Assembly (NCBI GenBank): GCA_026016205.1
Contig: CP061209.1
Location: 884,330 to 948,329 of the forward strand
DNA length: 64,000 nucleotides
Direction of reading: 5' to 3'
From: Methanosarcinales archaeon
GTDB lineage: Archaea > Halobacteriota > UBA148 > JAUWXC01
Shown: positions 337-63,821 of the stretch, piece after piece
Numbering within the stretch: position 1 is the stretch's first letter
How the letters are laid out: the number at the start of each line of letters is the position of its first letter
Made by a program: the position numbers and the translations under genes
The notes under the pieces: generated by a model
The model's database searches: none
Told to the model about the DNA's origin: nothing
Seen by the model: the letters and a program-made list of their open reading frames with translations, nothing else

Positions 337-1470
337 TCATTTGTCCAGCGTTCTCACAATTCTAGCGATGTCGTTTCCCACATCCGATGTTTTGGATGCG
401 CCGCCCATATCAGGCGTCCTGACTTTGCCCTCTTTGATGTTTTGCCCTATCGCCCTCAGCACAGAACCTGCTGCCTCTTTCTCGCCCAGGTGTTCTAACA
501 GCATCGCACCAGCCCAGATTGTAGCAATTGGATTTGCCTTCTGCATGCCCTTGTACTTTGGCGCAGAACCATGAATTGGCTCGAACATGCTCGTTCCCTC
601 AGGATTGATGTTTCCACCCGGCGCGAGCCCCATGCCGCCCTGAATCATCGCACCCAAATCGGTGATGATATCACCAAACATGTTAGGCGTAACCACCACA
701 TCGAACCACTCTGGATTCTTCACGAACCACATTGTAATCGCATCCACATAGTTAAAGTCGGTCTTAACATCAGGATAGTCAGTCGCAACCTTCCTGAAAA
801 TCTCGCGCCAGAAGCCGTATATGTCTGGCAGCACATTCGCCTTGTCAACGCTGGAAAGATGTTTTTTCCTCTCCCTAGAGAGTTCGAACGCATATCGAAT
901 GACGCGTTCTGTGCCTTTCCTGCTAATCAGCCCAATCTGATATGCGATTTCATCAGCATCCGAATCAATGTCAATGTCAAACTTGACCTTGTACAATTTC
1001 CGCACAACTTCCAATTCTTGATGGGTCCTGCCCTCTTTTGCCCCACCGCCAATTCCAATATAGAAGTCTTCAGTATTCTCCCTCACGACGACGAAGTCAA
1101 TGTCATCAGGTCCCTTGTCCTTCAAAGGCGTCCAGATGCCCTCTAACAACTTGATGGGTCTGAGATTGATATACTGGTCGAAGTAAAATCTCATCGCCAG
1201 TAGAATACCCTTTTCTAGTATGCCCGGCTCGATCCTATCATCACCTACCGCACCCAGATAAAGCGCCCTGTATTTTTCCAGCTCGCGCAACGTATCCTCT
1301 GGCATCAACTCGCCAGTCGCCAGGTAATGGTCTGCTCCATGCGGATAGTCAATCCACTCCAGCTCAAAGCCATGTTTTTCTGATGCTGCATCCAGAACCT
1401 TTTTGCCTTCGGCTATTACCTCTGGCCCTATGCCGTCTCCGGCTATAACAGGGACTTTATACTGTGCCAT
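337..1470 (-). CDS. leuB: 3-isopropylmalate dehydrogenase
   Basis: A 377-residue beta-decarboxylating dehydrogenase that oxidises and decarboxylates 3-isopropylmalate to 2-oxoisocaproate in leucine synthesis, using NAD. The N-terminus has the GDGIGPE signature, [14 protein letters not shown] lies in the middle, and the metal/substrate segment [19 protein letters not shown] follows. I start it at the ATG at 1470, preceded by GAGGAG, rather than at an in-frame codon nine residues upstream. Isocitrate and homoisocitrate dehydrogenases share the fold, but leuD and leuC 0.8 kb upstream on the same strand favour LeuB. A toxin-antitoxin pair separates them. Confidence 0.88.
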
Positions 1471-1511
1471 GATTATTCTCCTCTTTGAACGTCTCACTAA
1501 TAAGCACTACT

Positions 1512-1958
1512 TCACAATAACCCTTCTAGTTTTTGTTTCCAGTTTCTCGTTTTTAAATCGACCCACTTGTCACCAAAAATTTTGTATTTATTGTCTGTAC
1601 TTAAAATGGCTGACACATCACACTTTTGAGTGGTGGCCATGTATATTGAGTCAAACGGCGTTGCGCCGACTTCAGTCGAAATAGCGCACCCCTCGTGAAC
1701 AACGAGATCGTCCATTTGAACAAAATCAATCGGTAGGTCTCGAAGATTTGTGATGGCTTCAAAAATTAAGCCTATGTCCTGATCCCTATAGAATACGAGG
1801 TATATCTCTAATAAGGCAGCGGACGAGGTAACGAGAGTTATGTCTTTGTTTTGCGCCATCGTTAGAATCTGCTTGGCAATCGGCTTCAGCCAGTCGCTCT
1901 TCTTCAAATACGCGATTAAGATATCTGATTCGACAAAAACTCTTTTACTCAGAGACAT
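1512..1958 (-). CDS. vapC: VapC-type PIN-domain toxin ribonuclease
   Basis: A 148-residue PIN-domain protein. The acidic residues expected of the metal site are visible: D in FVESDILIAYL near residue 12, E in AALLEIYLVFY, and D in ATPFDSIYMATT followed by ILSTDNKY. Family members cleave RNA and are neutralised by a cognate antitoxin. The start overlaps the end of the AbrB-type gene upstream by 14 bases, the usual layout of an antitoxin-toxin pair. I chose the ATG at 1958; a TTG three codons upstream is also possible. The RNA target is unknown. Confidence 0.82.
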   Translation of the reverse strand: MSLSKRVFVESDILIAYLKKSDWLKPIAKQILTMAQNKDITLVTSSAALLEIYLVFYRDQDIGLIFEAITNLRDLPIDFVQMDDLVVHEGCAISTEVGATPFDSIYMATTQKCDVSAILSTDNKYKIFGDKWVDLKTRNWKQKLEGLL

Positions 1959-2196
1959 ACCTCGCAAAGGTCTTGGCTTTTTTTATGGCTACCTTCTTCA
2001 ATTCTTGCACCGATCTTAGCTCATCAAATATGCCTTCTAACTTCCTCATTGGATCCTTGGATTCGGGAGCGGGCACCATTAACGCCTTATCGCCCAGTTG
2101 GATGAACAAAACCCTATCTCCTTGGGATATATCCAGTGATTCTCTAATGCTTTTGGGTATAGTAACTTGGCCTTTTCTGGTAATGGTGGATTCCAT
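1945..2196 (-). CDS. vapB: AbrB/SpoVT-type antitoxin
   Basis: An 83-residue protein beginning MESTITRKGQVTIPKSIRESL, the swapped-hairpin AbrB DNA-binding signature (KGQVTIPKxIR). The C-terminal half is helical and charged, as expected for binding a PIN toxin. GGTGA precedes the ATG at 2196; a GTG three codons upstream is an alternative. It is co-transcribed with the PIN-domain gene that overlaps its 3' end. Antitoxins of this kind usually repress their own promoter, which would lie between here and leuD (2197-2260). Confidence 0.82.
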   Translation of the reverse strand: MESTITRKGQVTIPKSIRESLDISQGDRVLFIQLGDKALMVPAPESKDPMRKLEGIFDELRSVQELKKVAIKKAKTFARYVSE

Positions 2197-2260
2197 TTTT
2201 TTCACCAGTACTACATTTTATGTTTAGTAGTACTTATAGATTGCTCCCATATCGCTCTTA

Positions 2261-2743
2261 TTACAGTCTCGCTTTCGTATACCCGATCAACCCGCCAGAT
2301 TCTATGATTTTAAGAATGAACGTCGGCATAGAGGCAACTTGGTATCGTTCATTCTTCGTCTCATTCTCGATGATGCCTTTCTTAAAATCAACCTTGAGTA
2401 CGTCTCCTTCGCTGATTCGGTCCGCTTCCTTACACTCCAGCACAGGCAATCCGATGTTAATGGCATTCCTGAAGAATATGCGCGCGAAAGATTTTGCAAT
2501 TACGCAATGGATGCCGGCACCTTTCAAAGCCAGAGGTGCATGCTCTCTTGATGAGCCACACCCAAAGTTCCTGCCGGCAACGATGATGCCGCCCTTCGCT
2601 ACGTTCTGCGCAAACTCAGGACGGGCACCTTCAAAAACGTGCTTTGCCAGCTCCTTCGGGTCGTTTATCGTCAGATACCTGCCGGGAATGATGGCATCGG
2701 TATCGATGTCATCTCCAAATTTCCAAACGTTTCCCTTGCCCAT
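2261..2743 (-). CDS. leuD: 3-isopropylmalate dehydratase small subunit
   Basis: A 160-residue swivel-domain subunit that pairs with LeuC to isomerise 2- to 3-isopropylmalate. The family motif [21 protein letters not shown] is split here into GRNFGCGSS near residue 60 and [10 protein letters not shown] directly after. The open frame extends 53 codons further upstream, but the ATG at 2743 ([20 protein letters not shown]) is the family start and lies one base after the leuC stop, so translation is probably coupled. Homoaconitase small subunits look similar; the neighbouring leuB supports the leucine role. Confidence 0.9.
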
Positions 2744-2744
2744 A

Positions 2745-4031
2745 TCACACCGCCCTCGGATCTGTAATCTCTCCCTTAATCGCAGACGCTGCCGCAGTGG
2801 CAGGCGAACATAGATATACGAATGCTTTGGCACTGCCCTGTCTGCCCCTGAAGTTCCTGTTGGAAGTGGCAAGCCCGACTTCGCCATCACCAAGAAGCCC
2901 AAATGAACCGCCCATGCAGGGACCGCAGCACGGCGCTTCCACGAGTGCTCCTGCTTCTACAAACTGTTCTATGAATCCTGCCTTCAGCACCTTCATATAT
3001 TCGTCCCGGGATGCCGGTATGATGATTACCCTAACGCCTTCTGCGATTTTATTACCGCCGAGGATTTTCGCAACGACTTCCAAATCCTCGAACCTGCCGT
3101 TCGTGCACGAGCCGATGAATATCTGGTCGATTTTCGTGCCCTCAACCTCGCTCACGCCTTTAACGTTGTCCACGTTGTGCGGACATGCGACCTGTGGCTC
3201 AAGGTCTGAAACGTCGTATTCATGGCGCTGTATATAGTTGGCATCCTCATCACTGCGCCAGCGAGGGTCAAACTTGAAGCCAGGGATGCGTTCCTTAAGA
3301 TACGTCTCAGTCTTTTCGTCAGGCTCAACAATGCCCACCTTTCCGCCCATCTCAATCGCCATGTTGCACATTGTCATTCTTTCGGAGATGTTCATGTCCT
3401 TCACCGTTTGTCCGCAATACTCACAGGCAGCGTATGTCGCTCCGTCCGCGCCCACATCACCAATGATGCGCAGTATCACATCCTTAGCATACACCCTATC
3501 AGGCAACTTTCCAGAAATCTCGAATTTAATGGACTGCGGAACCTTGAACCACAACTTTCCGGTTGCAAACGCAGATGCCATGTCAGTGGAGCCCACACCC
3601 GTGGAGAATGCTCCAAGTGCACCATATGTGCAGGTATGCGAATCCGAGCCGATTATCAGGCCCCCTGGTAGCACATGGCCTTTTTCGGGCATTACCTGGT
3701 GGCACACACCCTCATTTACATCATAATTCAAAATGCTCTGCTCCTCTGCAAATTTCCTGAGCATTATGTGATTGCTGGCTGCATCCAGCGAATCGGCAGG
3801 AACCTGGTGGTCAAACAATATCACGATTTTGTTGGGATCCCACACGCGCTTCTCTTTTCGCCCTTCCATGATTTCATAGAATCCCTTTACTGCAAGCGGT
3901 CCCGTGATGTCATGAGTCATGGCGCAATCTATGTCGGCGAGCACAAACTCTTCTGCCAGTACCGGCTTTCGCGCCGCCCTGGAGAATATTTTTTCCGATA
4001 TGGTTTGCCCTGACATGACGACCGATGACAT
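2745..4031 (-). CDS. leuC: 3-isopropylmalate dehydratase large subunit
   Basis: A 428-residue aconitase-family protein carrying the [4Fe-4S] ligands: one Cys in [15 protein letters not shown] near residue 300 and a pair in [10 protein letters not shown] near 360. With LeuD it isomerises isopropylmalate in the cytoplasm. [10 protein letters not shown] near the start and [13 protein letters not shown] in the middle are typical of the archaeal LeuC/HacA group. A second ATG five codons in is an alternative start; neither has a clear ribosome binding site. Divergent from the RPA gene across about 70 bases. Confidence 0.9.
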
Positions 4032-54929: not shown

Positions 54930-56246
54930 ATGAAAAAAGTAGTAATGACCATAGCCGGTTCTGACTCTGGAGGCGGGGCCGGCGTCCAGGCAGACCTAAA
55001 GGCGTTTGCAGCGCTGGGCATGTATGGAACGTGCGCCATCACATCGATTACTGCACAGAATACGCTTGGTGTGCAGAGAACGTACGACCTGCCGACGGAT
55101 GTCATCACTGCCCAGATAGAGGCGGTATTATCGGATTTTGGTGTCGCATATGCAAAGACCGGTATGCTGTCCTCATCAGAGATTATTCGAGCCGTTGCAC
55201 AGGAAATCAAAAAGCACAAGATTCCTGTTGTTGTTGACCCTGTGATGGTGGCAGAGGCGGGAGGATCTTTGCTCAGAGAGGGTGCAGTATCCGTCCTCAT
55301 AAAAGAGTTAATCCCCCTTGCGAAAGTCATAACGCCCAACATCTTCGAGGCAGAGGCACTGTCTGGCGTGAGAGTAAAAGACAAGGAGAGCGCAAAACTG
55401 GCTGCGAGAAAAATACACGACCTGGGCGCGGATGGCGTGCTTATCACGGGCGGACATCTTGATGCTGTCGATATACTGTATGATGGCGAGTTCATATTCA
55501 TTCCTGGTGAATTGATAGACAAGGGCACGCATGGCGCCGGATGCACGCATTCTGCCGCGCTTACTGCATACCTGGCAAAGGGTTTTGCACTGAAGGATGC
55601 TGCGATAAAAGCAAAGGAGTTTGTGACTGCTGCTATCGCTGGTGGCGCAGATGTCGGCAGGGGCACAAACCCCGTGGATGGAGTGGCTGCTATAAGGGGG
55701 GGTGCAGAGCGGTACCGCGTCATGAAGAACTTGCAGGACGCTGTTTTGATGTTGGAAAAATGCGAAGGTTTTTCTGCGCTAATTCCAGAGGTCGGAACAA
55801 ACATAGGGATGGCGCTTCCTGATGCGACGGACACAGAGGATGTCGCCGCCGTAGTTGGAAGAATCGTGCGCATCGACGGTGCAAGAGTTGTTGGAAACAT
55901 AGACTTTGGTGCAAGCAAGCACGTCGCAAGAGTGATACTCGCCGCAATGAAGTTCGACGAGAATATGAGGGGTGCCATAAACATCCGATATTCACCAGAG
56001 GTGCTATCTGCCTGTAAAAAATTGGGTTTCACCATCGCATCGTTTGACAGAAAGGATGAGCCAAGGGGAGTGAGCACGATGGAGTGGGGCACCATGCAGG
56101 CAATTGAGAGTTTTGGCGCTGTCCCGGATGCCATCTATGACCTTGGTGGGATTGGCAAGGAGGCCATGGTCAGGATATTTGGGAGAAGTGCAATTGAAGT
56201 CGCAAAAAAAGCAATCGATGTCGCTAATGCGATGCGGAAAGATTAA
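54930..56246 (+). CDS. thiD: Fused HMP-phosphate kinase / thiamine-phosphate synthase (ThiD-ThiN)
   Basis: A 438-residue two-domain enzyme. Residues 1 to about 255 are ThiD: VVMTIAGSDSGGGAGVQADL, VVDPVMVAEAGG and GTHGAGCTHSAALTAYL. From about 265 the ThiN domain follows (LIPEVGTNIGMALPDATDTE, GARVVGNIDFGASKHVARVI), which couples HMP-PP to thiazole phosphate. The fusion is the standard archaeal replacement for ThiE. The preceding 75 bases are AT-rich and probably hold its promoter. Confidence 0.92.
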   Translation: MKKVVMTIAGSDSGGGAGVQADLKAFAALGMYGTCAITSITAQNTLGVQRTYDLPTDVITAQIEAVLSDFGVAYAKTGMLSSSEIIRAVAQEIKKHKIPVVVDPVMVAEAGGSLLREGAVSVLIKELIPLAKVITPNIFEAEALSGVRVKDKESAKLAARKIHDLGADGVLITGGHLDAVDILYDGEFIFIPGELIDKGTHGAGCTHSAALTAYLAKGFALKDAAIKAKEFVTAAIAGGADVGRGTNPVDGVAAIRGGAERYRVMKNLQDAVLMLEKCEGFSALIPEVGTNIGMALPDATDTEDVAAVVGRIVRIDGARVVGNIDFGASKHVARVILAAMKFDENMRGAINIRYSPEVLSACKKLGFTIASFDRKDEPRGVSTMEWGTMQAIESFGAVPDAIYDLGGIGKEAMVRIFGRSAIEVAKKAIDVANAMRKD

Positions 56247-56286
56247 GTGTAAAAGATGGTATAAGCGATGATGCATAGGTGGCAAA

Positions 56287-56547
56287 ATGGGCATTAAACC
56301 GACGTATATCAAAAACCTTGGAACCAAATTGATGGAAAAGTATCCGGATGCATTCAGTCCTGATTTTGAGGAAAATAAGAAGATAGTTGCCGAGCGCACG
56401 AACATCGAGAGCAAGGCGATTAGAAATAGAGTTGCAGGATATATCAGCAGAAAATTGAGAATTAAAGGAAAAATTAAGAGAAGGGGGGCGAAAGAGGGTG
56501 TTTCAGGGAGTGGCTCCAGCGCTGGTGACACCGTTCACCAAGGATAA
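56287..56547 (+). CDS. rps17e: Ribosomal protein S17e with an unusual tail
   Basis: The first 62 or so residues (MGIKPTYIKNLGTKLMEKYP, FSPDFEENKKIVAERTNIES, then KAIRNRVAGYISRKLRIKG) are typical archaeal S17e of the small subunit, which normally ends about there. The frame runs on for some 20 low-complexity residues (AKEGVSGSGSSAGDTVHQ) and overlaps dapA by 50 bases. A six-G run at 56483-56488 lies where the tail begins, so a frameshift near the end is possible. Confidence 0.88.
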   Translation: MGIKPTYIKNLGTKLMEKYPDAFSPDFEENKKIVAERTNIESKAIRNRVAGYISRKLRIKGKIKRRGAKEGVSGSGSSAGDTVHQG

Positions 56548-57370
56548 TGAAGTAGATGAAGAGGGGTTCAGGTCAAACATAGAATTTGCCATTGAGAATG
56601 GCGTTTCTGGTATCGTGCCGGCTGGCTGCACAGGTGAGGCTGCCACGCTCTCGTTCGAGGAGCAGAAAAGAGTTATCGATATCGCGGTAGATGCATCTTC
56701 TGTCCCGGTGATAGCGGGCACTGGATCAAATAATACGAAAGAGGCCATAGTGCTCACGAAGTATGCCGCCGATGCTGGCGCAGATATTGCGATGCTGATT
56801 AGTCCATACTACAACAAGCCGACCGATGCGGGCATGATCGCACACTATAAAGCCGTTGCCAGTTCGTGTGATATTCCGATATTGCTCTACAACGTTCCAT
56901 CGAGGACTGGAAGAAATATGCCCGCCAAGGTCGCGGCTGAGCTGGCAGACGTGGACAACATCGTAGGAATCAAGGAGGCCAGCGGGAATTTGAACCAAGT
57001 CTCCGAGATTGTACGTTTGACCAAGGATAAAAACTTCGTCGTCGTTTCAGGTGACGACTCGCTGACGCTGCCGATTCTGGCTCTTGGGGGCAAGGGCGTC
57101 ATTTCCGTTGCTGCCAACATCATCCCAAGACAGATGAGCGACCTTGTAAGCGCGTTCTTAAAGGGCGACATAGAAAAGGCAAGGGAGATTCACCACACCG
57201 TGTATCCACTGTTGCGCGACCTGTTCGTGGAGACGAATCCGATTCCCTTGAAGGCTGCGATGAAGTGGATGGGGCGGGCTGCAGGCGAGCCGAGATTGCC
57301 TCTGGTTCCATTGGGCCAGGAGAGTTCAGCCAAGTTACGACGCACCATGGAATCGATTGGGTTACTATGA
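56498..57370 (+). CDS. dapA: 4-hydroxy-tetrahydrodipicolinate synthase
   Basis: A 290-residue aldolase that condenses aspartate semialdehyde with pyruvate. The Schiff-base lysine is in VGIKEASGNLNQ near residue 161, the conserved Tyr in PILLYNVPSRTGRNMP, and GCTGEAATLSFEEQ lies near residue 44. It starts with GTG, overlapping the S17e tail, and its stop overlaps the dapB ATG. First of two lysine genes here; dapL-lysA-dapF are at 13-17 kb. Confidence 0.93.
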   Translation: MFQGVAPALVTPFTKDNEVDEEGFRSNIEFAIENGVSGIVPAGCTGEAATLSFEEQKRVIDIAVDASSVPVIAGTGSNNTKEAIVLTKYAADAGADIAMLISPYYNKPTDAGMIAHYKAVASSCDIPILLYNVPSRTGRNMPAKVAAELADVDNIVGIKEASGNLNQVSEIVRLTKDKNFVVVSGDDSLTLPILALGGKGVISVAANIIPRQMSDLVSAFLKGDIEKAREIHHTVYPLLRDLFVETNPIPLKAAMKWMGRAAGEPRLPLVPLGQESSAKLRRTMESIGLL

Positions 57371-58086
57371 TCAAAGTTGCTATATGCGGCGCTGCCGGGC
57401 GAATGGGTTCGTTGATAGCGCAGAACGTTTTGTCAGAGGATGATATGACACTTGTCGCCGCCTTTGATGTAAAGGATGTCGGCAAGAGCGCAGGAGATGT
57501 ACGTATCTCCGATGTTAAGCAAATTCACGATGTTCTTGCCGAAACCAAGCCCGACGTGCTGGTTGATTTCACCGTCGCATCCGGGGCGGTGGAGAACGCG
57601 AAGGCTGCCGCCGAGCATGATGTCAATATAGTCATCGGCACGACCGGCTTTACGCCAGAGCAGTACGAGGAGGTGCGCAATGTGATAGACAAAAAGGTAA
57701 CTGCAGTTATCTCTCCGAATTTTGCGGTCGGCGTGAACGTGTTCTGGAAACTCATAGGAGATGCAGCGAAGTATCTCGGCGATGCCGACGTGGAGATCGT
57801 CGAGGCACATCACAAGCACAAGAAGGACGCGCCGAGCGGAACGGCAAAGAAGGCAGCCAAAATTGTGCGTAGCGCCCTTGGTAGAGAGGTAAGCGTTCAC
57901 TCGATCAGAAGCGGAGACATCGTAGGCGACCATCTCGTCCTATTTGCAGGAGACGGCGAGCGCCTGGAGATAAAACATCAGGCGCACTGCAGGCAGGCAT
58001 TCGCCTCTGGCGTGATAAAGGCGATACGATGGATTGTGAGCGCACAAAAAGGCATATTCTCGATGAATGATGTGTTGGGATTGTGA
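57367..58086 (+). CDS. dapB: 4-hydroxy-tetrahydrodipicolinate reductase
   Basis: A 239-residue NAD(P)H enzyme: IKVAICGAAGRMGSLIAQNV dinucleotide fold, IVIGTTGFTPEQYEEVRN, and EIVEAHHKHKKDAPSGTAKK, the catalytic HHxxKxDAPSGTA motif. The ATG at 57367 overlaps the dapA stop (ATGA). The open frame starts earlier inside dapA but has no support. Product tetrahydrodipicolinate is the DapL substrate. Confidence 0.94.
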   Translation: MIKVAICGAAGRMGSLIAQNVLSEDDMTLVAAFDVKDVGKSAGDVRISDVKQIHDVLAETKPDVLVDFTVASGAVENAKAAAEHDVNIVIGTTGFTPEQYEEVRNVIDKKVTAVISPNFAVGVNVFWKLIGDAAKYLGDADVEIVEAHHKHKKDAPSGTAKKAAKIVRSALGREVSVHSIRSGDIVGDHLVLFAGDGERLEIKHQAHCRQAFASGVIKAIRWIVSAQKGIFSMNDVLGL

Positions 58087-58099
58087 CTTTTTGTACAGT

Positions 58100-58498
58100 T
58101 TACCAGCCATGCCTGTACATTTGCACCTCGCCAGACCTGAGCTTTCGTTTAAACCATTTCTTCAGCACTCTTTTCACCCCTGCCCTGGTCAGGGGGATGA
58201 GCAGGATAAAGCCCATGAAATCTGTGAGTATTCCCGGCGTAATGAGCAGGACTCCGCCTACCAGTACGAGCGCGCCATCGAACAATGGATCTGCAGGCAT
58301 GATGCCATTTGCCATGTGGGCCTGTATGTTCCTGAGAACGGACAAACCCTGGGATTTTGCAAGCATGGCACCAACAACACCCGTAACAACGACGATGAAG
58401 ATTGTGTTCCACGTCCCAATCATCTTGCCAAGTTCGATTAACAAAAACAGCTCGATGATGGGCGTCAATACGAAGATGATTATTAGTGTGGGTAGCAT
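58100..58498 (-). CDS. FxsA-family membrane protein
   Basis: A 132-residue protein with N-terminal helices (LIIIFVLTPIIELFLLIELG, then TIFIVVVTGVVGAMLAKSQG) and LVLVGGVLLITPGILTDFMG, the FxsA pattern. FxsA was named for suppressing phage exclusion by F plasmids; its normal role is unknown. AAAGGACAGG precedes the ATG. Convergent with dapB. The restriction-modification element begins 30 bases upstream of its start, so its original promoter has been moved away. Confidence 0.75.
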   Translation of the reverse strand: MLPTLIIIFVLTPIIELFLLIELGKMIGTWNTIFIVVVTGVVGAMLAKSQGLSVLRNIQAHMANGIMPADPLFDGALVLVGGVLLITPGILTDFMGFILLIPLTRAGVKRVLKKWFKRKLRSGEVQMYRHGW

Positions 58499-58536
58499 TT
58501 TGTTCCTGTCCTTTCGTGTAGTTCGTTCCTAACACG

Positions 58537-58559
58537 CATTCTGTTAACTTATTCTTGGT
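58537..58559 (+). repeat. Left terminal inverted repeat
   Basis: It reads CATTCTGTTAACTTATTC then TTGGT, and matches the reverse complement of 60408-60430 at every base. The G at 58536 and C at 60431 extend the match by one but belong to the duplicated target. Confidence 0.9.
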
Positions 58560-58638
58560 GATTTAAAAAATGCTTCTTCCCATACTTTATTACCCTCTCC
58601 GAGCCATAAAACTTACACTTCATATGTTTACATATCTG

Positions 58639-58648
58639 TATATATAAT
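58639..58648 (+). promoter_or_regulatory. TATA box of the restriction-modification operon
   Basis: TATATATAAT lies 75 bases before the first ORF of the element, the only clear core promoter inside the left end. Confidence 0.45.
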
Positions 58649-58712
58649 GTATATGGCTTATCTAAGAGTGGGGCAAAAGTAATAAACAGCTAACCGATAG
58701 CGATACCTATAT

Positions 58713-58955
58713 TTGTCTAAAACACCCTACCGAAAGCTATTTAAAGGCATAGACGGATTAGTATATAGCATGCCCAAGGAAAATGGGGATAAAATGAGGC
58801 GTATTAACGTGGGTTTGCCGCCTAGGGCATACGAAATCGTGACAAAAGACCTAATGAACCAGCTTGGAACCAATGAGTCAGATGTGGTTAGAAATATCGT
58901 TCTGATATATTTAAGTGAACGAGGATACTTTAAATTCTTGGGGGGGAAAGAATGA
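58713..58955 (+). CDS. Ribbon-helix-helix protein, likely regulator
   Basis: Up to 80 residues. KMRRINVGLPPRAYEIVTKD gives the beta-strand and first helix of a MetJ/Arc-type ribbon-helix-helix fold; NESDVVRNIVLIYLSERGYF is the second helix. It is probably a dimeric DNA-binding repressor of the operon, as controller proteins are in many restriction-modification systems. The start is TTG 58713 or ATG 58770; neither has a ribosome binding site, so leaderless or weak translation is likely. Overlaps the next ORF by ATGA. Confidence 0.65.
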   Translation: MSKTPYRKLFKGIDGLVYSMPKENGDKMRRINVGLPPRAYEIVTKDLMNQLGTNESDVVRNIVLIYLSERGYFKFLGGKE

Positions 58956-59092
58956 CCGACTGCGAAGGCCTAGAAGAACAGATGAACGCTTTTGATAAAA
59001 TGCTTGCTCCCCCAGTCGAGATTCTAGAGGAGAAAGGCATACTTACTAACGAAGAGTATGAGAGGCGAATTGAGAAGAAAATTCGAGGCTAA
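58952..59092 (+). CDS. Small charged ORF in the restriction-modification operon
   Basis: A 46-residue protein, MTDCEGLEEQMNAFDKMLAP then PVEILEEKGILTNEEYERRI and EKKIRG. The C-terminal half resembles SHOCT-type helices (LEEKGILTxEEYxxx). Its ATG overlaps the ribbon-helix-helix stop and the gene ends 20 bases before the methylase start, so it is likely translated in the same operon. Function unknown; an accessory or regulatory subunit is possible. Confidence 0.55.
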   Translation: MTDCEGLEEQMNAFDKMLAPPVEILEEKGILTNEEYERRIEKKIRG

Positions 59093-59111
59093 GATAAAAG
59101 AGGTAAAGTCA

Positions 59112-59921
59112 ATGCCGTTTGTAAAATGGGTAGGTGGAAAGAGGAATCTCCTTGATTACATCTTGCCTAATTTTCCAAATGAATACAACCACTATTATGA
59201 GTCCTTCATAGGTGGAGGAGCTGTATTCTTTTCAATACCAAACAAACCAGAAAATACAACAATATCCGACAACAACTTTGAATTAATAATCGCATACAAG
59301 GTAATTCAAAAAGAGCCGCAACCTCTCATCAAGCTTTTAAAAACACACCAAAAAAACCATTCCAAAGACTACTACAATAAGATTCGTTCACAGGAGCCAA
59401 GCGATCAAGTTGAAATGGCAGCACGCCTCATCTACTTAAATAAAACCTGTTACAACGGCTTATATCGAGTGAACAAACAAGGGAAATTCAATGTCCCAAT
59501 GGGTAGCTATAAAAACCCGAATATTATGCAGGAGGATAATATCCTAGCTTGCCATGAAGCCCTTAAAAATACAAAGCTACTCTACAAAGATTTTGATGAA
59601 ATAGAACCCAAGAAAAATGATTTCATATACTGCGATCCACCTTATCACCCAACAAGCGAAAATTCTTTTACAAGTTACACGAAGCAGAACTTTACAGAGA
59701 CAGATCACGTTAGGCTTAGGGATTATCTTATGAAGCTTGTTAAAAATGGCGTCTACATAATGCTCTCAAATTCTAACACAAAGTTTATTCGAGATTTGTA
59801 TAACTCAGACAAATTCCACAAGGAAATTGTTTATGCCCCAAGATTGGTCAGTTGTAAGCCTGATTCCAGAGAACATGTAGAGGAACTTTTAATAACCAAC
59901 TACCCTATTAATATATCATGA
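59112..59921 (+). CDS. Dam-type DNA adenine methyltransferase
   Basis: A 269-residue class D12 N6-adenine methylase. FVKWVGGKRNLL (motif X) is at residues 3-14, SFIGGGAVFFSIP (motif I) near 31-43, LNKTCYNGLYRVN near 109-121, and DPPY (motif IV) at 175-178. NKTCxNGLYRxN is the Dam/DpnII group signature, so GATC is a plausible target, unproven here. The frame opens 18 codons earlier, but the ATG at 59112 follows GAGGT and fits the family. Stop and nuclease start overlap by four bases. Confidence 0.87.
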   Translation: MPFVKWVGGKRNLLDYILPNFPNEYNHYYESFIGGGAVFFSIPNKPENTTISDNNFELIIAYKVIQKEPQPLIKLLKTHQKNHSKDYYNKIRSQEPSDQVEMAARLIYLNKTCYNGLYRVNKQGKFNVPMGSYKNPNIMQEDNILACHEALKNTKLLYKDFDEIEPKKNDFIYCDPPYHPTSENSFTSYTKQNFTETDHVRLRDYLMKLVKNGVYIMLSNSNTKFIRDLYNSDKFHKEIVYAPRLVSCKPDSREHVEELLITNYPINIS

Positions 59922-60328
59922 AATATGGAACCCGTGCAAAGTACACTGGCATTCAGTTAGAAAAAGTAATCTATAACCGATTAAGTGACAAAGGCTATTC
60001 TTGGGTAGATAAAAAACATTTTGATCCAACTCGTTACTTAGAACAACCTATTTTCTCTACACAATACCATATAGGAAAAAGCATTTATGAAACAGATCTA
60101 AATTGCGACTTCATCATATACCATCCAGAGAAACACCCGAACTGCCTTATAATTGAATCAAAATGGCAGGAGTCCACTGGTTCTGTTGATGAAAAATTCC
60201 CATATCTTGTAGCGAATATAAAAGAAAAATTCCCCTGCCCTTCAATAGTCGTTTTAGACGGTGGAGGATATAAATCGGGGGCTGAAAAATGGTTGAGAAA
60301 TCAGACTGATGAAAAAAAAACTTCTTAA
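59918..60328 (+). CDS. PD-(D/E)XK restriction endonuclease-like protein
   Basis: A 136-residue protein with E15, D60/D64 in ETDLNCDFIIYHP, and E80-S-K82 in CLIIESKWQESTGSVDEKFP, the metal site of PD-(D/E)XK nucleases. The ESKWQ..SVDEK pattern occurs in small nucleases paired with methylases. It begins in an ATGA overlap with the Dam-like gene, so the two are a restriction-modification pair. It is shorter than most type II enzymes. Cleavage site unknown. Confidence 0.72.
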   Translation: MKYGTRAKYTGIQLEKVIYNRLSDKGYSWVDKKHFDPTRYLEQPIFSTQYHIGKSIYETDLNCDFIIYHPEKHPNCLIIESKWQESTGSVDEKFPYLVANIKEKFPCPSIVVLDGGGYKSGAEKWLRNQTDEKKTS

Positions 60329-60407
60329 AGTCTTCAATATGCGAGAATTCCAGAAATGGTCTAATAGTAAAGAATTATAAACCTCCACCCCTTTATATAT
60401 CGGCTAT

Positions 60408-60430
60408 ACCAAGAATAAGTTAACAGAATG
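60408..60430 (-). repeat. Right terminal inverted repeat
   Basis: ACCAAGAATAAGTTAACA then GAATG, the exact inverse of the left repeat at 58537-58559, directly followed by the second copy of CCTAACACG. Confidence 0.9.
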
Positions 60431-60431
60431 C

Positions 60432-60560
60432 CTAACACGTAAACGTTTTGTCCATAATTTTGAGTTTAGAGCAATCTCCGCGCACGAACATCTCTATGTC
60501 TTCAGGAAACTTGCTCAGGATGTGCGCCTGACGAAGTTCAAGGAAAGCGCGAGATGGCAA
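60432..60560 (-). CDS. Possible small protein upstream of fxsA, interrupted neighbourhood
   Basis: A 42-codon frame from TTG 60560 reads LPSRAFLELRQAHILSKFPE, DIEMFVRGDCSKLKIMDKTF then TC and TAG. The stop codon falls inside the right copy of the 9-bp target duplication. Before insertion this frame would have ended about 40 bases ahead of fxsA on the same strand. Composition looks protein-like, but there is no good start signal, and the opposite strand is also open. Treat as tentative. Confidence 0.3.
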   Translation of the reverse strand: MPSRAFLELRQAHILSKFPEDIEMFVRGDCSKLKIMDKTFTC

Positions 60561-60575
60561 TAGGGAGACCAAAAA

Positions 60576-60583
60576 TTTATATT
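60576..60583 (+). promoter_or_regulatory. TATA box of the ferredoxin-asd operon
   Basis: TTTATATT lies 32 bases before the ferredoxin ATG, after the right end of the inserted element, so the insertion did not remove it. Confidence 0.5.
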
Positions 60584-60614
60584 GAAGTCGTTCATCCTCA
60601 TATGCGGGATTATT

Positions 60615-60785
60615 ATGGCAGCAAAAGTAGATTCTGATACTTGTGTAGGATGTGGAGCGTGCGTGGATGAATGCCCTGTAAGTGCGATCTCGCTAAATGA
60701 TGAAGTTGCTTCAGTTGATGATTCGCTGTGCACTGAATGCGGTGCATGCGTTGATGTCTGTCCAACAGGTGCGATTATATTATGA
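60615..60785 (+). CDS. 2x[4Fe-4S] ferredoxin
   Basis: A 56-residue electron carrier: [16 protein letters not shown] and [16 protein letters not shown] give two CxxCxxCxxxCP cluster sites. The family start is the ATG at 60615. Its stop overlaps the beginning of asd, so an electron-transfer protein is coupled to an amino-acid gene; this may be operon chance or a link to reductive metabolism. Confidence 0.93.
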
Positions 60786-61819
60786 GAATGAAAGTAGGCG
60801 TTTTGGGTGCAACCGGCGCAGTTGGACAAAGGTTCATCCAGCTGTTAGCAGTGCATCCGTGGTTCGAATTAGCAGCGCTGACCGCATCCGAACGGAGCGC
60901 CGGCAAGAAATACGGAGAAATCGCAAGATGGCGGCTGGATGTACCGCTGCCTGATAAGGTAAAAGACCTGAAGGTTTTGCCAACCTCGCCGGAAAAGGTA
61001 GATGCTGACATCGTGTTCTCCGCGCTACCAGCCTCCATCGCGAAAGACGTTGAGCCCAAGTTTGCAAAAGCGGGATTTGTGGTGGCGAGCAATGCCAGTG
61101 CATACAGGATGGAAAGTGATATTCCCCTGATGATTCCGGAAGTCAATCCAGACCACCTGGGATTGGTAGAGGTGCAAAAGAAAAATCGCCACTGGGACGG
61201 CTGCATTATCACCAATCCGAACTGCTCGGTCATCGCGATGGCACTCTCATTGAAGCCGCTGATGAAGTTTGGCATAAAGGGCGTGCACGTGGCGACCATG
61301 CAGGCAGTATCGGGCGCAGGCTACGAGGGCGTTTCATCAATGGCAATCCTCGACAACGTGATACCATACATCGCACAGGAAGAGGAGAAGATGGAGATAG
61401 AGGCCCAGAAGATACTGGGCGAATTCGATGGCTCCAAGGTGAAAAATGCCGATTTCGCGGTAAGCGCAAGTTGCAACAGGGTTCCTGTTATAGATGGGCA
61501 TACTGAGGCAATATGGGCATCATTGCGCGATAATCCAAGTTTGAGTGAAGTGCGCGATGCATTCGCCGGGTTCAAATGCGACGAGGTAAAGGGGCTGCCA
61601 ACCGTCCCAGAAAAAGCGATTATCGTACACGATGCGAACGACAGGCCACAGCCGAGGTTGGACAGAAATGCCGGGAAAGGCATGAGCGTTTCAGTTGGGA
61701 GAATCATGGAATATGCGGACGGTATCAAATATACTGCAATGGGGCATAACACGATTAGGGGCGCGGCAGGCGCATCTGTACTGAATGCTGAATTATTCTG
61801 TAAAACGTACAAACGCTGA
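60782..61819 (+). CDS. asd: Aspartate-semialdehyde dehydrogenase
   Basis: A 345-residue NADP enzyme of the archaeal/fungal type, giving aspartate semialdehyde for lysine, threonine and methionine. [20 protein letters not shown] is the dinucleotide fold, the catalytic Cys is in [13 protein letters not shown] near residue 149, and [14 protein letters not shown]-like text ([15 protein letters not shown]) holds the catalytic His. It supplies DapA. The Fd gene overlaps its start. An AAACG-AAG-CGTTTTT hairpin with a T run follows the stop near 61828 and may end the transcript. Confidence 0.92.
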
Positions 61820-61864
61820 GATTGAAACGAAGCGTTTTTCATCTTTCATGCGATTCTTAACTTG

Positions 61865-62929
61865 ATGACGCGCACAATCTGTTTTGACCTTGAGGGGCCG
61901 TTATCACCGCAGGATAATGCCTACGATGTTATGTCCCTCGTAGAGAACGGCGACAAGATATTTGAGGTTATCAGCAAGTATGATGATACGCTCGCGCTCG
62001 AGAACAGGGAGGGATACGAACCGGGAGATACGCTCGCGCTAATCGTACCGTTTCTACTGCGCCACAACATCTCAGAAGAGGACATAACAAGGGTTTCAAA
62101 GCGGGCAAAAATCGTTGACGGTGCAAAATACCTGGTTTCCAAACTAAAATCTGATGGATGGGGGGTATACATCATCTCGACCAGTTACGAGCAGCACGCA
62201 TACAATATCGGTGCACAGCTCGGCGTCCCCAAGGAGAACATAGTGTGCACCAGGCTATCGCTGAGTGCCCTGCGAGATGAAATGAAGGGCGATTTCTCGG
62301 TAATTGAGAGGGTAGAGAAGAATATCTTGGAGCTTTATGAACACATAGAGGCACCAGAGAAAATAGTGCATCGCCTGGACAAATTCTTCTTTGAGGAACT
62401 GCCAAGGACGGGATATGGCAATGTACTTGATAGAGTGAAAGTAATCGGCGGTGCAAAAAAGGTTGCAGCGGTGCACAAAATAGTGGAGGCAAATAACACC
62501 AGTCTATCAGACGTGATGGCAGTTGGGGACAGCATAACGGATTACAAGATGCTCAAAGACGTGAGGGAAAATGGCGGCGTTGCGGTCGTCTTCAATGGGA
62601 ATGAATATGCAATCCCATATGCAAGCATCGGCCTAGCATCGCTGGACATACGATTTTTATACCTACTAACGAGATTGGGTAGAAAGGATTTGATGTTTGA
62701 AATGGCAAAGTCCTGGGAGGTTGAGCGCCCTGAGTTTGAGAATGACCCGGGATTGATCTCAGAGAACCTCATAACGCCAGAATTCAGACGTTTCCTGCTT
62801 GAATCAAGGGTTGAAGTGCCTTACTTCAGTTATTTAGATGGCGCAGACGAAAAGAAGATGTCAGAGGTCATAAAGATACACAAAAGGTTCAGGGCGCTCA
62901 TCAGGGGCGCAGCAGCAAAGTTGGGGTAA
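61865..62929 (+). CDS. Uncharacterised archaeal HAD-like protein
   Basis: A 354-residue protein. ICFDLEGPLSPQDNAYDVMS holds the HAD nucleophile position (the usual DxD is D-x-E here), GWGVYIISTSYEQHAYNIGA is motif II and MAVGDSITDYKMLKDVREN is motif IV. The E in place of the second D argues for a changed reaction. The long middle (LDKFFFEELPRTGYGNVLD) is helical. Such proteins are common in methanogens but their substrate is unknown. Followed closely by a pfkB kinase. I use ATG 61865; a TTG precedes it. Confidence 0.7.
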   Translation: MTRTICFDLEGPLSPQDNAYDVMSLVENGDKIFEVISKYDDTLALENREGYEPGDTLALIVPFLLRHNISEEDITRVSKRAKIVDGAKYLVSKLKSDGWGVYIISTSYEQHAYNIGAQLGVPKENIVCTRLSLSALRDEMKGDFSVIERVEKNILELYEHIEAPEKIVHRLDKFFFEELPRTGYGNVLDRVKVIGGAKKVAAVHKIVEANNTSLSDVMAVGDSITDYKMLKDVRENGGVAVVFNGNEYAIPYASIGLASLDIRFLYLLTRLGRKDLMFEMAKSWEVERPEFENDPGLISENLITPEFRRFLLESRVEVPYFSYLDGADEKKMSEVIKIHKRFRALIRGAAAKLG

Positions 62930-62933
62930 TACA

Positions 62934-63821
62934 ATGGATGTCGTTGGCTTGGGTGCATTAAATTATGACCGGTTGTATGCGGTTGAAAAAATCGCAAAGC
63001 CGGGTGAAGAGGTTGGCGTTATTGACGTGAAGGGGTGCCCGGGCGGTTCTGCCGCAAACACGATCGCCGGTTTGGCCAGGCTGGGATTGAGCACTGGCTT
63101 CATAGGCATCGTGGGCGATGATGTGGAAGGAAAAATGGTCGTGGATGACTTCGTGGCGGAGGGCGTTGATGTCAGCAGGGTCAGGAGGGTAAAAGGTAGC
63201 ACTGGAATAGCGCTTGCATTGGTTGATGAGCATGGTGAGAGGGCACTCTACGTCCATCCCGGGGTTAATGATGCGCTGTCCGTTGACGCGGGTGATGTGG
63301 ATTACACCAACAATGCTCAGTTCATTCACATGAGTTCGTTCGTGAGCGCAGAGCAACTGGAGATGCAGAAGAGACTGATGAATAAGACAAAAGCAAATGT
63401 AAGTTTTGCACCAGGAATGTTGTGTTTCAGGTTCAAGTTTGATGCCTTAAAGCCAATCATTGCGAGATGTCATGTGGTATTTCTAAATGAGGCTGAAGTT
63501 CGCTCCTTAACCGGCGCCGGCCACAAAAAGGGCAGCGAGATTTTGCTGAGTGCTGGTGCTGAAATAGTGGTGGTGACACTTGGCAAAAAGGGCTGCTACA
63601 TCGCCAATGAGAGCATCTATATGGCGCCGCCCAAGGCAAAAGTCGTGGATACAACTGGCGCAGGAGATGCCTTTGCAGCAGGGTTTTTGTATGGTCTATT
63701 AAGGGGCGAGAATATGAAGCGATGCGGCGAGCTTGGTAATATTGTTGCATCTTCGTGCATAAGAAAATACGGGGCAAGAGATGGATTGCCATATGAGAAG
63801 GACTTAACAACGTTGGGGTGA
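62934..63821 (+). CDS. PfkB-family carbohydrate/nucleoside kinase
   Basis: A 295-residue ribokinase-fold enzyme. PGGSAANTIAGLARLGLSTG near residue 37 and VVDTTGAGDAFAAGFLYGLL near residue 240 (catalytic D in GAGDAF) are diagnostic. Archaeal members phosphorylate ribose, nucleosides or sugars; the specificity cannot be read from motifs. Four bases after the HAD gene and six before ftr on the same strand. Confidence 0.85.
   Translation: MDVVGLGALNYDRLYAVEKIAKPGEEVGVIDVKGCPGGSAANTIAGLARLGLSTGFIGIVGDDVEGKMVVDDFVAEGVDVSRVRRVKGSTGIALALVDEHGERALYVHPGVNDALSVDAGDVDYTNNAQFIHMSSFVSAEQLEMQKRLMNKTKANVSFAPGMLCFRFKFDALKPIIARCHVVFLNEAEVRSLTGAGHKKGSEILLSAGAEIVVVTLGKKGCYIANESIYMAPPKAKVVDTTGAGDAFAAGFLYGLLRGENMKRCGELGNIVASSCIRKYGARDGLPYEKDLTTLG

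Follow-up and report, generated by a model that had tools for sequence, protein, structure and literature searches.

The window analysed here, a stretch of 64,000 nucleotides from a Methanosarcinales archaeon (contig CP061209.1, positions 884,330 to 948,329), harbours an element of 1894 bp at positions 58537-60430, with fxsA (PF04186) on one side and a ferredoxin-like open reading frame (ORF, recognised by eye) and asd on the other. Four ORFs, all in the same direction, lie inside it, including a Dam-family methyltransferase and a putative restriction nuclease, that is, a small restriction-modification (R-M) operon. The operon is enclosed by terminal inverted repeats (TIRs) identical at 23/23 bp and by a 9-bp direct repeat (Table 1). 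A previous reading made from the letters alone (the sequence-only reading) had reported these repeats and the four-ORF operon, and all of them were recovered at the same positions. Its remark that no mobile-element enzyme lies inside was also borne out: the IS6-like transposase that accompanies related ends (see below) reached E = 1.0 at best within the element and gave no match in the window at E ≤ 1.

Table 1. Features of the element and its borders, in window coordinates
Feature	Position	Strand	Remarks
Left target-site duplication	58528..58536	none	CCTAACACG, 9 bp
Left TIR, 23 bp	58537..58559	+	CATTCTGTTAACTTATTCTTGGT; inner edge GGTGATTTAAAAAAT starts like transposase-side ('A') ends of the family
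TATA-like box	58738..58745	+	TATTTAAA; archaeal type, approximately 25-32 bp upstream of the first ATG; by eye, putative function
Small ORF, ribbon-helix-helix-like	58770..58955	+	By eye; without family match
Small ORF, 46 aa	58952..59092	+	Weak SHOCT likeness, below cut-off (E 0.008)
Dam-family DNA adenine-N6 methyltransferase	59112..59921	+	PF02086, 205.9 bits; TIGR00571, 269.8 bits; DPPY motif by eye
PD-(D/E)XK nuclease, putative restriction enzyme	59918..60328	+	PF20472 PDDEXK_11, 125.4 bits
A9 run	60312..60320	+	Nuclease frame departs here from the C-terminal end of the G284 relative
Right TIR, 23 bp	60408..60430	-	Exact complement of the left TIR; inner edge GGTATAGCCGATATATAAAG starts like family 'B' ends
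Right target-site duplication	60431..60439	none	CCTAACACG, 9 bp

The pairing of the TIRs reaches 24 nt once one further base per side is counted. It is the window's longest perfect inverted repeat within 6 kb (the next has 15 nt), and 20 order-1 Markov simulations of 64 kb gave inverted repeats of 16 nt at most. The borders are read most simply as symmetrical 23-bp TIRs and a duplication of 9 bp; alternatively, the duplication may have 8 bp and the right end one extra base. The GC content of the element is 36.6%, compared to 47.8% in the window, and is lower than in all 311 tiles of the same size. RNA families were not detected at gathering scores in 57500-61500, and no tRNAs were found in 56000-63000.

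The same site is empty in a congener (G001), whose Asd protein is 96% identical and whose flanks are approximately 93% identical. The left flank aligns up to 58536 (93.5% over 2304 bp), and the right flank resumes at 60432 within the same short stretch of G001 (37 bp, 89%), with a second block of alignment starting at 60492 (93.4%, 1483 bp). At the junction G001 has a single TCTAACACG followed by TAAACATTTTGTGTATAATTTTGA, while the window has CCTAACACG followed by TAAACGTTTTGTCCATAATTTTGA; the two 9-mers agree at 8/9 bases. The presence of one copy in G001 and two around the element indicates an insertion, which we regard as nearly certain irrespective of how the element moved. The sequence-only reading had anticipated such a single-copy site, and the outcomes looked for against it did not appear: no empty site with two copies of the 9-mer was encountered, and searches for the nuclease and for D12 methyltransferases were negative in G001, G002 and G003, the three congeners (82, 94 and 63% complete respectively).

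The search for the repeat that the sequence-only reading had proposed was likewise productive, as related ends occur beside a transposase and around other cargo. The window ends match the family end GGTTCTGTTAACTTATTGTTGGT at 20/23 bases. The core TTCTGTTAACTTATTSTTGGT, with ≤2 mismatches, was present at 31 sites in 17/392 genomes of the phylum (own genome included; 0 sites in the reversed control) and at 12 sites in 8/300 genomes of the G392 phylum, which was chosen because G392 carries an end (2 sites in the reversed control). Exact core matches were found in 27 stretches of genome_contigs, from Archaeoglobales, Bathyarchaeota, Micrarchaeota, Aenigmatarchaeota, Diapherotrites, Thermoproteales, Methanobacteriaceae, Thermococci, Ca. 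Methanoxibalbensis and others, and there were 0 core matches in viral_contigs. With ≤3 mismatches, the 22 genomes behind the exact matches gave 54 sites in the true orientation vs. 3 in the reversed control. An exact copy of the 21-bp core of the window is present at a single site in the Micrarchaeota genome G398; the own genome has no copies with ≤3 mismatches beyond the two ends of the element.

The surveyed ends were sorted by their inner edge (several rows show the same place more than once, and contig edges truncate some). A DDE transposase match, usually to the C-terminal part, was present within 1.2 kb in 13/20 rows of class A ends (GGTGA) and in 0/28 rows of class B ends (GGTAT). The left inner edge in the window looks A-like (GGTGA) and the right one B-like (GGTATA), which is suggestive only. 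The transposase beside the related ends is IS6-like by its matches to PF13610 (66.9 bits, cut-off 27) and to the IS6 model NF033587 (97.3 bits, under the cut-off of 125). Compared with the IS6 TIR motif (GG tip and CTGTT), TTCTGTTAACTTATT is common to both; the tip is CA in the window and GG in many relatives. IS231 belongs to the IS4 family, and IS4/IS231 ends, guessed from the CAT... tip, were considered and rejected: PF01609 had no match in the own genome, and the transposase beside the related ends is of the IS6-like type.

Partner ends with an exact 8- or 9-bp duplication were searched for in 84 loci (several of them repeat views), using shuffled partner sequences as decoys. Five further distinct elements were obtained, whereas 30 decoy runs on these loci gave 0; single ends were left out of this count. 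The element in L100 (Diapherotrites, 1261 bp) has perfect TIRs, a 9-bp duplication and a DNA-alkylation-repair protein (PF08713, 218 bits) as its only listed ORF of at least 60 aa. The TIRs are also perfect in the element of L165 (Methanobacteriaceae, 4729 bp), whose transposase is interrupted; a second ORF in it looks transposase-like by eye, and there are further genes. In L153 (Archaeoglobales, 4920 bp) the transposase is in pieces and accompanied by a 667-aa N6_Mtase protein, while L150 (Micrarchaeota, 2671 bp) retains a transposase stub. L164 (2896 bp), with one poor end (7 mismatches), is a weak candidate. The transposase forms a decay series, from interrupted (L165) to pieces (L153), a stub (L150, E 7e-5), E 0.018 (L100) and E 1.0 (the window). 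Two other weak candidates were observed: L157, with one mismatch in the duplication and a transposase fragment inside, and L143 1289-1610, which is 322 bp long, MITE-like, with both end classes and a duplication matching at 7/9.

We interpret the element as a small R-M operon flanked by a pair of archaeal IS6-like transposon ends, that is, as a mobile insertion cassette (MIC), a non-autonomous unit that would have been moved in trans by an IS6-like transposase. An IS6-like DDE transposase, from another replicon or from a former resident insertion sequence (IS), would have bound the two ends and integrated the unit, with duplication of 9 bp. The methyltransferase would then mark adenine, probably in GATC, and the nuclease would cut unmarked DNA, and for this reason we propose that the cargo protects its host cell and also penalises its own loss. 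A longer transposon that lost its transposase is the probable ancestor of the cassette; several stages of such a loss are represented among the related elements. The element is not filed as an IS because an IS6-type DDE transposase is absent from it. The sequence-only reading had suggested a non-autonomous element served by a transposase elsewhere in the genome. The non-autonomous part holds, given the empty site and the related ends with other cargo; no evidence was obtained for the location in the same genome, where no IS6-like transposase was detected (987 kb, 87% estimated complete). A search with the C-terminal sequence of the IS6-like transposase was positive in 43/294 genomes and negative in the own genome and the three congeners. 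These four were also negative for PF13610 at E ≤ 1, with 3/11 genomes positive, all of another family of the same order. In the G252 family, transposase matches were present in 16/55 genomes.

Several observations weigh against the proposed mechanism. The window ends depart from the family consensus at 3/23 positions, and the window's exact 22-mer is absent from genome_contigs and viral_contigs, from which the records of the own genome may be excluded. The empty site differs by one base from the window's 9-mer, and the duplication is 9 bp in the window and L100 and 8 bp in L150, L153, L164 and L165. Most of the surveyed ends are single. No full-length open transposase was found beside these ends: close copies in Archaeoglobales (54-78% identical) are stop-interrupted or fragments, and in L091 the only long open copy beside such an end (212 aa) is truncated where the contig stops. 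Full-length open relatives are 36-39% identical, and those in L067 and L069-L071 had no such end at ≤6 mismatches. Among the distant transposases (L049-L078), apart from loci overlapping known ends, a close TIR-like site was present only in L050 (3 mismatches, far from the gene), and inverted-repeat searches in seven of these loci gave no matching ends. Because no helper copy is proven, and because decay in place needs room, our probability for the full mechanism was reduced from 0.85 to 0.7.

Decay in place would mean that the transposon inserted with its transposase, lost the gene later at the same site and never moved in trans. The interrupted, fragmentary or stub transposases of related elements (L165, L153, L150) agree with such a history, as does the failure to find a helper transposase in the own genome. 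However, the TIRs are still identical at 23/23 bp and no transposase trace is better than E = 1.0, so the loss would have to be both clean and recent; we consider this course of events possible but rather unlikely. The sequence-only reading had also put forward a self-mobilising R-M unit, in which the nuclease and the methyltransferase drive the insertion and make the duplication. R-M insertion with long target duplications and IS-linked R-M movement have been described (PMC3031569), but ends of this family are also found next to transposases, to a DNA-repair gene and to unrelated genes. As the family also bounds unrelated cargo, this proposal is unsupported. Moreover, the same gene pair in another genome (G284) has no long inverted repeat around it in a 3.4-kb locus (8 pairs, none >16 nt), and we find self-mobilisation very improbable.

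The end family could also be a chance or regulatory motif and not a set of transposon ends. Many surveyed ends are single, without a recognised partner; in L101 and L079 the end lies directly 5' of an AbrB-like gene (by eye); and the reversed control was not empty in two of the surveys (3 sites in the set of 22 genomes and 2 in that of 300). Against this, inward pairs with exact 8- or 9-bp duplications were absent from all 30 decoy runs, the reversed pattern had 0 sites in the 392 genomes, and the window has its own empty site. This explanation is largely refuted, and we give it next to no weight.

The nuclease ORF begins with an ATGA overlap at the end of the methyltransferase ORF. The two genes are adjacent, as in type II R-M systems. 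The best PDB match of the methyltransferase was the DpnII methyltransferase (2dpm), while the nuclease had no match in PDB at E ≤ 1 and none in PADLOC. The nuclease was present in 2/392 genomes of the phylum, own genome counted. The pair occurs again in G284, where the genes overlap and the nuclease is 54% identical, and on an Alicyclobacillus plasmid, with a nuclease of 33% identity; owing to this recurrence it looks like a conserved R-M pair. In viral contigs two stretches matched the nuclease pattern and 0 were confirmed; no relatives of the nuclease were found in phages, and one was found in plasmids. Relatives of the methyltransferase occurred in 2508 plasmid records (<60% identity), too common for its origin to be traced. 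The frame of the nuclease is broken at the A9 run just 5' of its stop, downstream of a catalytic-looking CDF...ESK (by eye); past this run, sequence like the C-terminus of the G284 nuclease continues in another frame to approximately 60381. The break may reflect a genuine inactivation, a tract that can switch or a mistake in the assembly. As it falls within a homopolymer, this copy of the nuclease may be inactive or changed.

Relative to expectation, none of the other 16 four-base palindromes is as rare in the window as GATC, one of that set (107 observed vs. 349 expected). The observed/expected ratio was 0.27 in three other stretches of the own genome and 0.32 in G001 (loci of these two genomes: L226-L228 and L211-L213), 0.38 in G004, 0.65 in G002, 0.66 in G007 and 0.79 in G005. 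G004 carries a D12 methyltransferase, and the cassette was not detected in G001. The avoidance seems older than the cassette, because G001 shows it to the same degree, and it agrees with recurrent exposure to GATC-specific cutting rather than with an effect of the present copy in particular. GATC is proposed as the recognition sequence of the R-M pair on indirect grounds only, namely this avoidance and the similarity to Dam and DpnM.

The window diverges from G001 within approximately 40 bp beyond the element. The next two genes of G001, encoding a 488-aa protein and an N6_N4 methyltransferase, are missing from the window's interval save for one remnant (60447-60557), of which 37 codons are 68% identical to the 3' end of the intact N6_N4 DNA methyltransferase of G001 (L176 5032-5934). 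Only pieces of this methyltransferase gene were found in the corresponding interval of G002. The gene for the 488-aa protein (L176 3399-4865) lies directly 5' of the methyltransferase and had no match in Pfam, NCBIfam or PADLOC; it possibly encodes the partner nuclease of its neighbour. In G002 the same dapB-asd interval harbours a DpnI-like methyl-directed nuclease (L177 4483-5259; PF06044, 190 bits), beside a nucleotidyltransferase, a DUF4258 protein and others that are toxin-antitoxin-like by eye. Since the DpnI-like nuclease of G002 would target the mark that the Dam-type enzyme of the window probably makes, the interval resembles a hot spot for defence genes, with contents that oppose each other.

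Pfam matches near single ends, which are weaker evidence, included N6_N4 methyltransferases (L088, L048), AlkD (L099), endonuclease III (L103) and radical-SAM (L139). Many unrelated genes were also found near such ends (ICMT-like, AAA_14, glyoxalase, MFS and CAAX-protease, and some without a match). This cargo list is partial (20 ORFs picked from 26 loci, and some others, were scanned) and cannot measure bias. The radical-SAM gene of L139 (1937-2746) lies directly inside its end and matched TIGR04470 'radical SAM mobile pair protein B' at 155.8 bits, below the cut-off; sequence resembling it by eye is present at two other ends (L029/L095 and L165 4805-5254). In L088 (Aenigmatarchaeota, 431-3998) a class B end adjoins a run of three genes, two encoding proteins of 135 and 378 aa and one an N6_N4 methyltransferase of 675 aa; the run is possibly a second R-M cargo. 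A shared archaeal cassette pool biased to DNA-modifying genes is suggested. In its wider form, which we hold only tentatively and would not favour over its negation, archaea, and thermophilic lineages above all, might share a dispersed pool of passenger cassettes with one IS6-like end sequence, which would have crossed phyla with a cargo leaning to DNA modification and repair (R-M, DNA methyltransferases, AlkD, endonuclease III, radical-SAM) and would work as a gene-cassette system for defence genes with the transposase in trans. An R-M operon between IS6-like ends, together with related ends near DNA-modifying and repair genes, would offer a concrete route for defence genes between archaea, and the common end provides one sequence that can be searched and tested.

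Among known systems, MICs are defined by inverted repeats around a passenger gene, without a transposase and usually with a target duplication (PMC3913671). The element has the structure of MIC231, mic-qnrD and mic-qnrS2, namely IS-type inverted repeats, no transposase and a target duplication. MIC231 of Bacillus cereus is moved in trans by the IS231A transposase (PMC3913671); the element differs from it in its IS6-like ends, its archaeal host and its R-M operon cargo, and its mobilisation in trans is a presumed one. Transporter ISs (tIS) resemble the element in having a passenger gene between IS6-type ends, but they retain the transposase that the element lacks, and the single IS6-family tIS named in a 2021 review, ISDsp3, comes from a bacterium, Dehalococcoides (PMC7986276). 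IS6-type transposition is described as replicative cointegrate formation (PMC7986276), which may or may not extend to the archaeal branch.

Archaeal IS6-like ISs (ISPfu1/2/5, ISMja1, ISSis1) have longer TIRs that loosely resemble the bacterial IS6 consensus, and many of their tips are not GG (PMC6807381). In the tabulated rows with a value, their duplications are mostly 8 bp, 9 bp in ISPfu5 and ISH15, and 3 and 5 bp in two rows (PMC6807381). Harmer and Hall consider that the archaeal 'IS6' elements may deserve a family of their own (PMC6807381). The likeness to them lies in the IS240/IS6 DDE domain of the transposase beside the related ends; however, the rows list elements of 696-853 bp with a transposase (PMC6807381), whereas the present element has 1894 bp and cargo instead. 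DpnII-type and Dam-PDDEXK R-M operons likewise have a Dam-family methyltransferase adjoining a PD-(D/E)XK nuclease, but the nuclease of the element is a PDDEXK_11 protein without a PDB match and its GATC specificity is a prediction. To judge from titles cited in PMC3031569, R-M genes also lie in a putative mobile structure in the PluTI system and in a transposon-like R-M of Rhizobium leguminosarum. A survey of thaumarchaeal mobile elements states that composite DNA transposons with passenger genes besides the transposase were not detected in archaea (PMC6563490). No archaeal case was described in the literature searched, which covers papers on mobile R-M forms only partly, and absence from print is not claimed. 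In structure the element belongs with the mobile insertion cassettes, its cargo being an archaeal R-M operon between IS6-like ends.

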